A stretch of DNA of 39,605 nt, from NCBI GenBank assembly GCA_020722365.1, contig DYKY01000009.1, positions 1-39,605 on the forward strand. The letters are read 5' to 3'. The notes under the pieces are model-generated. The model had not been told where the DNA came from. It did not search any database and saw only the letters and a list, made by a program, of their open reading frames with translations. Positions within the stretch are counted from its first letter, which is position 1. Each line of letters starts with the position of its first letter. This document shows, piece after piece, positions 12,570-30,334 of the stretch. The DNA comes from Thermoflexus sp. Lineage in GTDB: Bacteria; Chloroflexota; Anaerolineae; B4-G1; SLSP01. The position numbers and the translations under genes were made by a program.

Positions 12570-12622
12570 CCAGTAGACGGTAGACGGTAAACAGTAGACG
12601 GAAAACGCGAGACGGTATACAG
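12570..12622. repeat. heptamer tandem array, unit ~RGTARAC
   Basis: agtagac ggtagac ggtaaac agtagac ggaaaac gcgagac ggtatac; follows TATAAT at 12563-12568. Confidence 0.85.
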
Positions 12623-12651
12623 TGGATAAAAACGGGAGAGGGTCACACTAT

Positions 12652-13907: not shown

Positions 13908-13930
13908 AGGATTTGGATCTCATTCTATCA

Positions 13931-13990
13931 GCAGATTGAGCAGATGAAGCAGATTTTCTTCGCTGAGAAATAAAAAATCTGCTCAATCTG
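13931..13990. repeat. nonamer-type repeat (GCAGATKRA) forming a 14-bp inverted repeat
   Basis: cagattgagcagat (13932-13945) / atctgctcaatctg (13977-13990), perfect inverted repeat. Confidence 0.85.
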
Positions 13991-16680: not shown

Positions 16681-17583
16681 CTAGACGTGGTCGGTAAAAC
16701 GGGAGTCGTCGAGTTGCTCGCGCAGTTTCTCCTCAGCGTTGAGTGCTGGACGAGGTACGGCGGCTGTATGATCTACGTATTCTGCGGCTTCGGCTTCCAT
16801 GAGCGCCTCGCGACTGGCCCGGCGCACCAAGCTCCACTTGCCACAATGCGGACAGCGGTCGTATTTGCCCACAAGGCTGATGTTGAACCCCCACCAGTGC
16901 ATCCCATAGGGTCGCCCACACTTGGGACACACCACACCGCCGAGCACGCCGTAACTGCGCGGCTCGCCGGGCGTGTAAGACGTGGGGTCATACGGCGCTG
17001 CCGGCTTTCTGCGTTCCATCAGCATCGGGACAACGCCGGTCACAACAATGGCAATCACCGCCAGCACAAGGATCGGCACAAGGAGTTTCACCGTACCTTC
17101 CCCCGCGGCTTCGGCGGAGACAAACTGAAAGCTCAGCGTGCGCGCCGTCAAGGTCTGCCCACCGGTCGTTGTTCCCATAGCGGTGACTTCGTGCCAGCCG
17201 GGGGCGTATTCGTCGGTCTTGAATGACAGTTCGAACGGAGCCACCGTCGCCTCACCGAGCGGCTCACCGTCGAGCAAAAAGGTAACGGCAGTCAAATCCT
17301 CCGGACCGCGTACCCGGATCTTGAACGTCCCCTGAATCTGGCTCCCCATATTGTAGCCGAACTGCTTGCTCACGGAGATGCTCAATCCCTCTTCCTGCGC
17401 CCACACCGGCATCACCAGCAGCAAACACACGCCCAATACAATCAGCACCTTTCTCGCAAATCGAGCCCAGCGCGCCCATTCGCCAATCCGCCCATTCGCT
17501 GAGTTGTTGATTTGCTGATTTGCTGATTCGCCAATTCGCTCATTCGCCGATGCATTGATTCGCCCATTCGCTGATTCGCTCAT
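16681..17583 (-). CDS. secreted/membrane protein with an Ig-like domain and a C-terminal zinc-ribbon-like cytosolic tail
   Basis: Signal-like RKVLIVLGVCLLLVMPVWAQ, TM segment, VCPKCGRPYGMHWWGFN...DRCPHCGKW; the N-terminal ~36 aa are encoded by the octamer array, so the true start is uncertain. Confidence 0.75.
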   Translation of the reverse strand: MSESANGRINASANERIGESANQQINNSANGRIGEWARWARFARKVLIVLGVCLLLVMPVWAQEEGLSISVSKQFGYNMGSQIQGTFKIRVRGPEDLTAVTFLLDGEPLGEATVAPFELSFKTDEYAPGWHEVTAMGTTTGGQTLTARTLSFQFVSAEAAGEGTVKLLVPILVLAVIAIVVTGVVPMLMERRKPAAPYDPTSYTPGEPRSYGVLGGVVCPKCGRPYGMHWWGFNISLVGKYDRCPHCGKWSLVRRASREALMEAEAAEYVDHTAAVPRPALNAEEKLREQLDDSRFTDHV

Positions 17584-17590
17584 TCTCTCA
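17474..17590. repeat. octamer tandem array, unit ~ATTCGCYS, overlapping the N-terminus of the 16681-17583 ORF
   Basis: Repeated cattcgct/gattcgcc/cattcgcc units; translates to an 8-aa period SANGRINA SANERIGE SANQQINN SANGRIGE. Confidence 0.9.
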
Positions 17591-18390: not shown

Positions 18391-18440
18391 GTCAACGGAT
18401 TCTTTCTCTCCAATCCGTTTCATCCGTTCAATCCGTTGAC
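18391..18440. repeat. nonamer array with 11-bp inverted repeat between ABC ATPase and permease genes
   Basis: gtcaacggatt (18391-18401) / aatccgttgac (18430-18440), with ttcaatccg-type 9-nt units. Confidence 0.85.
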
Positions 18441-27814: not shown

Positions 27815-30334
27815 CTAATACCAAAGCCGAATAACCTCCACACTTGCTTGCCGCCACCGTTCCGGCTCCGGGAAGGAACGCAGGTAATCCAGAAGTTCGA
27901 ATTTCGGGCCGACGACTAGCCGCGCTGTGAAGGTTGTTTCATCCTGGTTGAATTCGCCCTCGAAAAGCAGCTTCTTCTTCAACGCCTTTTCGGTCACGTC
28001 GAAGACGTAGCCCTCCCCCACCCTGCGAACGTTGACCGGCGCGTAGGCCGCGTGCAGGAAGCGGCGCAGGTGCGACCCGGCATCCGGGAAATGTGCCGTT
28101 GGCAAGGTGAGGGCCAGTTCCATTCGAGTGAAGGTTCCTGGCTCAAAGGTATCGATCCATCCCAAGAAGGGTAGACGGTAGACAGCAAACGGTAGACGGG
28201 GGGAAGAAGCTTCGTTCTTTAGCGTTTCGGCCAATTTCGTTACGTCCCATGCCTTGAGAGCGAAGACCGTCTCGCCGTGAAGGTTAGCAAAGCGGCGGCG
28301 GTTGTCTTTTGTGGTGAAAAGGCTTTCTTCTACCGAAAGCAGGTTGTCGAGCAGGTCGGGATACTGCGCCAGCAAAGCGCGCATCACCCAGGCGTTGAGC
28401 CAGGCGGGATCGCGGCCCGCGACTTCCGGCGGCAGCCGGAAACGCGCGTAGACCGGCTTGAGCCGCCATTTGGTACGCATCACGTCCTCCAATTCGCGCC
28501 GGTACGCTCCGCCGGGGTGCCGCATCGCGTGTCCGATAATCGCGGCCCGCTGCTCGGCGTCGGTACACGCGCCGCACGCGAGACATCGGCTTCCCAGGCA
28601 GTAGCCCGCATCCTCGCCCGCAAGCGCCTGTTGGTATTGGTTGTAAAGAAAACGCGGCGTCACGTCCGAGCGAACAAAGTCCATTGCGAAAGCGTAGTCC
28701 GGCCCCTTTTCGCCCAGGAAAGCCCCATTCCATTGTCCGCGCTCTTCCATCCACGCCCGCAGCGCGTCCCAATAACCGGGCGTAAGCACGATGTCGTAAA
28801 AATGCCCTTCCCGCGCCAGGTCCAGAACCGGCGCGTGCAGCCAGTGCCCACCCAAGGCGAGCACCTGCGAGGCCGCGTACTCGTCCCACGGCGCCGCCAG
28901 GCGGAACTCGAAACCGTTGGTCTCACACGCCGACTTCGCCGGGCCGATCACCTGCCGCCATTCTGCCTCGTCGAGGAACAGCCGGTCGTGACGCAGCGGC
29001 GTGAACGGCATCCGCACCAACAGCCCAAAGCTGAAAATGATCCGCACGCCGCGATTGGCGCGTTGGTGCATGGCCTTCAGACGGCTCACGAAAGCGCGGA
29101 ATTCGTCCAGATCGGCCTCTGTTTCGTGGCCGGTGAGGATGTAGAACAGCTTGATCTCGCGGATCTTCCGGCGCAGCAGACGCGCCAGCACGCTCTCGAT
29201 TTCGGCGTCCGCAAGGCTCTTGTGAAGGAAAGCGCGCATCCGCCGGCTGACGCCCTCGACGCCGAGCGTGAAACTGCGCTTGTCGGCGGTCACCTCCGCC
29301 TCCAGCAAGCCCGGCAACGTCGCCAACACGTCCACGCGCTGGCTCTTGAAGCTCACACGGTCAAACAGTCGGTTAAGCGCCAGGAGCAGCGCCAGAATGT
29401 CCTGGTGGGTGTTGAAGTTGAAACTGTAGAGATCGACTTCGTCCGGCCCCTGCTGCTGCTTGATCTGACGCGCCGCCGCGAGGATCGCCTCTTGCGGCAA
29501 TTCACGGTAGGGTTTACGCTCATACCCCTCGAAACAGAACGTACAGAACGCCGGACAGCCGTAGTTCACCTGTAACTTCGCCGTCGCCGCTTCAGAGCTA
29601 TCCAGCAGAGGATACACGGTCAGCAAATCGCCCCCCGACGGATCGGCGCACACCGCCTTTTTTACCTGTTGATCGGACGGTCCGTTGGCGACCCACAGGC
29701 CGGTCACCGTCCCGGCTGCGCGCAGCAGACGCTCACGCTTGGGAAGCAGCGCGTTCTCGCCGAGCATGCAGGCCAGTGTCTCCACCTCGCGCTCCCCTTC
29801 GCCGAAGAAGAGCGCGTCCGCCACGCAATCGCCTGTCTCCGTGACAATCGCCTGCGCCGCCATCGCGTTGGAGCCACCGAGGATGAGCGGAGGATAGCGC
29901 GAATCCCGCTCGCTGGCGAGTAACGGCACACCGGAATGATGCAGCAGATACGGCAAGTTGATCAATTCCAACGTATAGGCGTTGGAGATCAACACCGCAT
30001 CGAAATCCTCAATGCCGCGCCAGGACTGTGTCCCCACGAGCAGCGGCACGCCTGCCGCCAACAACTGCTCGCGGTCGTACTGCGGCGGAAAGAAAGCCAT
30101 GTCGATATAGGCTTCCGGCAACGCACGACGCACTGCCTGGAAGAGGAACAGGTGCGGCGTCGAGCGGTCCACGTCGCGGAAAGGCGACAGCCGCACGATC
30201 AGCGCGCGGAAACTCGCCGCCTCGAACGCCGGATTGCCGAACGTGGGATTCGGATCAGGGCGATACAACGCTGCCTGCTGTAGCAAGGGCCAGTTTTGCG
30301 TAAAAAATTCATGGCAATGTGTCATCACCGTCAT
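27815..30334 (-). CDS. radical SAM protein with N-terminal B12-binding-like domain
   Basis: YGCPAFCTFCFEGYERKPYRE; ILGGSNAMA...ADALFFGEGE; start placed at MTVMTHCHEFF because the more N-terminal residues are repeat-derived. Confidence 0.88.
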   Translation of the reverse strand: MTVMTHCHEFFTQNWPLLQQAALYRPDPNPTFGNPAFEAASFRALIVRLSPFRDVDRSTPHLFLFQAVRRALPEAYIDMAFFPPQYDREQLLAAGVPLLVGTQSWRGIEDFDAVLISNAYTLELINLPYLLHHSGVPLLASERDSRYPPLILGGSNAMAAQAIVTETGDCVADALFFGEGEREVETLACMLGENALLPKRERLLRAAGTVTGLWVANGPSDQQVKKAVCADPSGGDLLTVYPLLDSSEAATAKLQVNYGCPAFCTFCFEGYERKPYRELPQEAILAAARQIKQQQGPDEVDLYSFNFNTHQDILALLLALNRLFDRVSFKSQRVDVLATLPGLLEAEVTADKRSFTLGVEGVSRRMRAFLHKSLADAEIESVLARLLRRKIREIKLFYILTGHETEADLDEFRAFVSRLKAMHQRANRGVRIIFSFGLLVRMPFTPLRHDRLFLDEAEWRQVIGPAKSACETNGFEFRLAAPWDEYAASQVLALGGHWLHAPVLDLAREGHFYDIVLTPGYWDALRAWMEERGQWNGAFLGEKGPDYAFAMDFVRSDVTPRFLYNQYQQALAGEDAGYCLGSRCLACGACTDAEQRAAIIGHAMRHPGGAYRRELEDVMRTKWRLKPVYARFRLPPEVAGRDPAWLNAWVMRALLAQYPDLLDNLLSVEESLFTTKDNRRRFANLHGETVFALKAWDVTKLAETLKNEASSPRLPFAVYRLPFLGWIDTFEPGTFTRMELALTLPTAHFPDAGSHLRRFLHAAYAPVNVRRVGEGYVFDVTEKALKKKLLFEGEFNQDETTFTARLVVGPKFELLDYLRSFPEPERWRQASVEVIRLWY
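28170..28198. repeat. heptamer array (GGTAGAC) inside the radical SAM coding sequence
   Basis: ggtagac ggtagac agcaaac ggtagac; same unit as the 12570-12622 intergenic array; in frame as PRLPFAVYRLPF. Confidence 0.9.

Follow-up and report, generated by a model that had tools for sequence, protein, structure and literature searches.

Two heptad arrays and a radical SAM host gene

The window, that is, the whole stretch of 39,605 nucleotides that was analysed, carries a heptamer array inside a gene for a radical SAM (rSAM) protein of the B12-binding type, whose match to NCBIfam TIGR03960 was distant and far below the cut-off. The plus strand of the array reads GGTAGAC GGTAGAC AGCAAAC GGTAGAC GG. 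As the host gene lies on the minus strand, the coding sense of the array is GTCTACC, and the coding strand reads CC GTCTACC GTTTGCT GTCTACC GTCTACC, with GTTTGCT as the decayed unit. On this strand the array is preceded by CTTCTTCCCC, and the peptide encoded at the array is ...SSPRLPFAVYRLPFLGW. Tandem Repeats Finder reported a period of 7, 4.3 copies and a score of 39. When up to two mismatches were allowed, the two-unit word GGTAGACGGTAGAC was found four times in the window, compared to 0.10 expected from shuffles, and the remaining three matches were those of the glgA-rocD array. The coordinates of the features are collected in Table 1.

The original prediction had placed a heptamer array inside a radical SAM gene with the reading frame open across it, and both points were confirmed, the former by the sequence and by Tandem Repeats Finder. 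The seven-residue period of the peptide, to which it had also drawn attention, is present and is nothing special, being three times seven bases, as in any in-frame heptamer array.

Table 1. Features of the window that bear on the heptad arrays
Feature	Position	Strand	Description
Host gene, B12-binding-type radical SAM protein	27815..30334	-	840 codons; Pfam Radical_SAM_N2 and Radical_SAM
GTCTACY heptad array	28170..28199	-	Four units, unit 2 decayed; codes residues 711-720 (PRLPFAVYRL region)
Pyrimidine tract CTTCTTCCCCCC	28198..28209	-	Abuts the 5' side of the array (coding strand); the final CC is counted with the array
Second GTCTACY array	12571..12623	-	Decayed, ~7 units, intergenic between glgA and rocD; also in G001

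The array site in orthologs and in the protein model

Most of 40 relatives had an ortholog of the rSAM gene, and the orthologs were compared by alignment and at the DNA level; each species was represented by a single draft assembly, and the nearest relatives were about 84% identical in the rSAM protein. The segment between ...LKAWD and ...FLGW varied freely. Among orthologs at 55-84% identity, the array was absent, longer, or replaced by another repeat in the same loop: outgroup orthologs such as that of G018 had a short ordinary loop, the G002 protein (79% identity) had eight GTCTACY heptads, the G001 protein (84%) an octamer array rich in purines, and the G012 protein a CACGGAGA-type repeat. 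An insertion absent from relatives or variable in length among them had been predicted, and this was borne out by the alignment and the DNA: the array is an extra segment whose length varies, and conservation of PRLPFAVYRLPF with no length variation was not found in the orthologs.

An AlphaFold model of the protein (839 residues, built from 37 aligned orthologs) had a mean pLDDT of 92.5. Residues 710-717, located between a helix (698-708) and a strand (723-727), were the sole segment of at least three residues under 50. The array is therefore predicted to fill the one disordered loop of the protein, which lies at its surface. The gene would survive the array because this loop is disordered and the array lies in the stop-free orientation.

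In the G011 ortholog (L007, G011:C131), the loop was occupied by a purine-rich tract that contains a TGA in frame, and the downstream part of the gene lay in another frame. This gene appears to be broken, or the assembly to be in error.

Dispersal, phase and polarity of the GTCTACY arrays

Tandem arrays were counted in sampled stretches of this genome (G000, 222 kb) and of G002 (800 kb). G000 had 38 arrays of period 7 and 10 of period 8, with none at periods 4, 5, 6 or 9 and 0 in shuffles, and G002 had 71 and 46 arrays of periods 7 and 8, respectively. Many different words were used, and they were reused across unrelated loci. With all words pooled, the arrays were depleted in genes, which held 52 of 165 though they cover about 87% of the sequence. 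The arrays fall into an established class of simple repeats, the heptamers (PMC4679880, PMC4692102, PMC6749651), members of which have been described in cyanobacteria and as GGGAATC in Xanthomonas (PMC4692102), TAACTGA in Beggiatoaceae (PMC4679880) and GATAGRA in Chloroflexus (PMC6749651).

Exact 18-mers of the GTCTACY array were found 9, 8, 19 and 14 times in G000, G001, G002 and G003, respectively, with none for the reversed-pattern control, and none were found in G005 or G018. A 20-mer pattern searched in 400 Chloroflexota genomes was found in two, namely this genome (47 exact matches; reversed control, 0) and the distant genome G255 (6 matches). In G255 (L189, L191, L193, L195), the same GTCTACY arrays stood mostly in inverted pairs; they may be due to transfer or convergence.

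Of 21 arrays in stretches selected without regard to the repeat, 17 shared the start phase; this phase lock had been spotted in some of the data later used to test it, and the counts include orthologous copies, which are not independent. Thirteen of the 21 ended exactly at a unit border, and four complete units were the commonest length (12/21). The start phase also agreed in 40 of 42 arrays fetched by pattern and in 8 of the 9 arrays of G255. Since this phase includes the CY supplied by the C-rich border, the true start of the array is the G of GTCTACY. Phase lock of other words was partial for GAATSRGC (29/49) and weak for AATCCCY and ACTCCCT. In-frame length as the sole reason for four units was ruled out, as intergenic arrays peak at four too.

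The two sides of the arrays differed. The pyrimidine run had a median length of 6 on the 5' side versus 2 on the 3' side, and both GAATSRGC octamers and inverted RGTAGAC partners were found 11 times upstream and 0 times downstream. GTCTACY arrays thus stand last, at the 3' end, in polar composites whose other heptamer or octamer arrays lie only 5'.

Genes were called by a simple codon-usage script, except in the cases compared with orthologs. By these calls, 51 GTCTACY arrays were divided into 26 inside genes in the GTCTACC sense, 2 inside genes in antisense and 23 intergenic ones. Read in the GTCTACC sense, an array has no stop in any frame (VYRLPST), and the 26:2 bias is explained by selection, because the GGTAGAC strand carries TAG in every frame. 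Among the host genes, named by sequence likeness, are those that presumably encode CarB, a PurD-PurM fusion (two arrays), TrpF, LarC and a UvrA-like protein. Compared with outgroup orthologs, the array was an insertion or a replacement in rSAM, PurD-PurM, CarB and TrpF. In CarB, a composite with whole-unit length differences was common to three species and absent in two outgroup genomes, which makes it an old, vertically inherited insertion. Arrays were also shared between two species each in TrpF and between glgA and rocD. One and the same PurD loop was filled differently in each genome: by octamers plus GTCTACY in G000, only by octamers in G002, and by another repeat in G001. The UvrA-like gene (L036) was dropped as an empty-site test, for which only paralogs of ~45% identity were found.

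Two further observations concern genes with arrays. PurD and PurM formed one open frame (L057:385-2802, G000:C177; L051, G002:C11), the fusion was also open in G001, G018, G015 and G006, and its junction and one PurD loop were taken up by arrays of octamers, pyrimidines and heptamers; the repeats may serve as fusion linkers. At L067:14996-15026, the TAG stop codon of a predicted gene seems to come from an antisense array located where the gene ends.

Copying, slippage and palindromes as possible sources of the arrays

The rSAM array is probably one copy of a dispersed module, normally composed of a pyrimidine tract and then four GTCTACY heptads, that was block-copied to many places in this genus of Anaerolineae (Chloroflexota). 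Block copying is favoured because word, phase, length, border and polarity are fixed, whereas words and phases would be random if slippage acted alone. New copies would arise from templated copying of an existing module rather than from expansion of a local word, most likely by template switching in repair or replication, or else by transposition, and the unit number would then drift by gain or loss of whole units. Within genes, only in-frame copies in the GTCTACC sense would survive. The linker PSTVYRLPST would have no function of its own in the rSAM protein, and copies would be kept where they are harmless, in permissive loops. The original prediction had called the arrays mobile. The dispersal of one word through the genus at a fixed phase favours copying and speaks for this; against it, no insertion event, target duplication or exact junction was seen among the genomes compared, the search for a copying enzyme found none, and some copies (CarB, TrpF, glgA-rocD) are old and inherited.

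A more specific reading, possible but tentative, is a polar self-dispersing module, fixed at its 3' end as (GTCTACY)4 and variable in its 5' part, laid down in units of 7 nt by some copying activity. The 5' part would be a pyrimidine tract, GAAT-octamers, other heptamers or an inverted arm, and the activity might be, for example, a reverse-transcription-like or template-switching process.

Local slipped-strand mispairing, in which every array would have expanded on the spot from a heptamer present by chance, with 7 nt favoured by the replication machinery, is in our view an unlikely origin. The preference for 7 nt is an idea that two articles attribute to Mrazek 2007 (PMC4679880, PMC4692102). 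The dominance of period 7 with many words (38 arrays versus 0 in shuffles in G000, 71 in G002) fits slippage, as do the whole-unit differences between orthologous CarB arrays, but local seeds would not be expected to yield one word in one phase at dozens of unrelated loci, bordered by C-rich sequence and in a fixed polarity. Slippage is very good as a second step and poor as the origin of the GTCTACY family. Generation de novo, the other possibility raised at the outset, is not supported in this form, as local slippage fails to explain the recurring word, its phase and the C-rich 5' border.

Descent from a palindromic mobile element of the MITE, REP or RPE kind seems improbable as well. Its full unit would be a hairpin, (RGTAGAC)4 - G-rich - loop - C-rich - (GTCTACY)4, and solitary arrays would be half copies left after loss of the stop-bearing arm. 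An inverted partner within 90 bp was found for 18 arrays (both arms of a pair being counted), always 5' and never 3'. Some intergenic copies are inverted pairs that give strong hairpins, and for two pairs the folding energies were -56.4 and -45.4 kcal/mol (z -10.2 and -7.5). In solitary arrays, the C-rich 5' border corresponds to the end of the stem in the pairs. With all words pooled, 14 of the 71 heptamer arrays between genes had an inverted partner, versus 0 in the control; inverted partners of octamer arrays were not above control (2/42 versus 3). A palindromic form of GTCTACY therefore exists, yet most copies are single arms, even among intergenic arrays (17/23); the window's rSAM copy does not fold (z 0.72), and no terminal duplications were seen.

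REP and REPIN elements are short and dispersed and occur with RAYT (Y1) transposases. GTCTACY copies resemble them in being short and dispersed and in forming some hairpins; unlike them, they are tandem heptads, often intragenic, and without a link to the RAYT-like genes of these genomes. RAYT-type Y1 transposases were rejected as movers, as 0 of 15 Y1_Tnp loci had GTCTACY within about 1.5 kb of flank and different palindromes of their own were present there, which also weighs against the palindromic origin. Classical REP-like palindromes with a different sequence (e.g., GCCGACTGAAGTCGGC) bordered the RAYT-like Y1 genes of L237, L239 and L241. For reverse transcriptases, there were a few RVT_1 matches in G000, G001 and G002, and GTCTACY arrays lay near one of nine loci (L254). 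A G-quadruplex was ruled out, since the unit has GG only, with no GGG tracts, and AGTAGAC units break even GG.

A selected function, with PSTVYRLPST as a protein linker or the DNA as a binding site, is very improbable: site and unit number have long been kept in TrpF and in a glycosyltransferase (L056/L072), but unrelated sequences occupy the same loops in sister species, many arrays are intergenic, the rSAM loop is predicted to be disordered, and units decay (GTTTGCT).

The GTCTACY family can be set beside several known systems. Like known heptanucleotide repeats, it has seven-base units, many loci per genome and a genus-typical word; it differs in the word, in the fixed start and end phase, and in having the pyrimidine tract and other arrays only 5'. 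In Xanthomonas, heptamer arrays are mostly of four units, 70 of 186 are in inverted pairs, and 89-93% are intergenic (PMC4692102). GTCTACY arrays likewise most often have four units and are sometimes paired, whereas about half of those sampled lay inside genes in the stop-free sense. Rickettsia palindromic elements are described in PMC10969869, citing Ogata 2000, as palindromic, about 150 bp long and in frame in metabolic genes. GTCTACY arrays are also short dispersed repeats in frame within functionally unrelated metabolic genes, but the in-gene element is about 30 bp and not palindromic. Borg tandem repeats are in frame and give disordered protein segments, with units that are longer, A-rich and locus-specific, flanked by partial repeats (PMC9879509). 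The GTCTACY arrays share with them the in-frame tandem repeats and the disordered segments, predicted here, and differ in that a single word recurs across loci in complete units. As heptamer repeats (PMC4692102) and in-frame dispersed repeats (PMC10969869) are already known, their combination here, fixed-phase heptad modules as in-frame linkers, is a variant of these.

The dominance of heptamers among bacterial tandem repeats and the spread of one word are a long-standing question. With one word, a fixed phase and polarity, and four units at dozens of loci, and with essential enzymes in which orthologous sites are filled in some genomes and unfilled in others, this genus is a test set for slippage versus copying. 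It also shows a route from a non-coding repeat to a protein linker, for which an open reading frame and a stop-free strand are the sole filters. If the polar-module reading is true, a copying activity builds new disordered linkers into core enzymes.

Other repeats were observed alongside the GTCTACY arrays. G002 (e.g., C1:172092-172143) has a separate and very frequent octamer family with a palindromic core, AACGTT, plus two variable bases, in 3-6 units. In the window, an octamer array of the GAATSRGC class at 17473-17590 forms the N-terminal codons (SESANGRINASANERIGESANQQ...) of the ORF at 16681-17583 if the upstream start is used. Two more dispersed repeats of ~50-70 bp, located at about 13923-13990 and 18394-18440 of the window, had dozens of matches in congeners.
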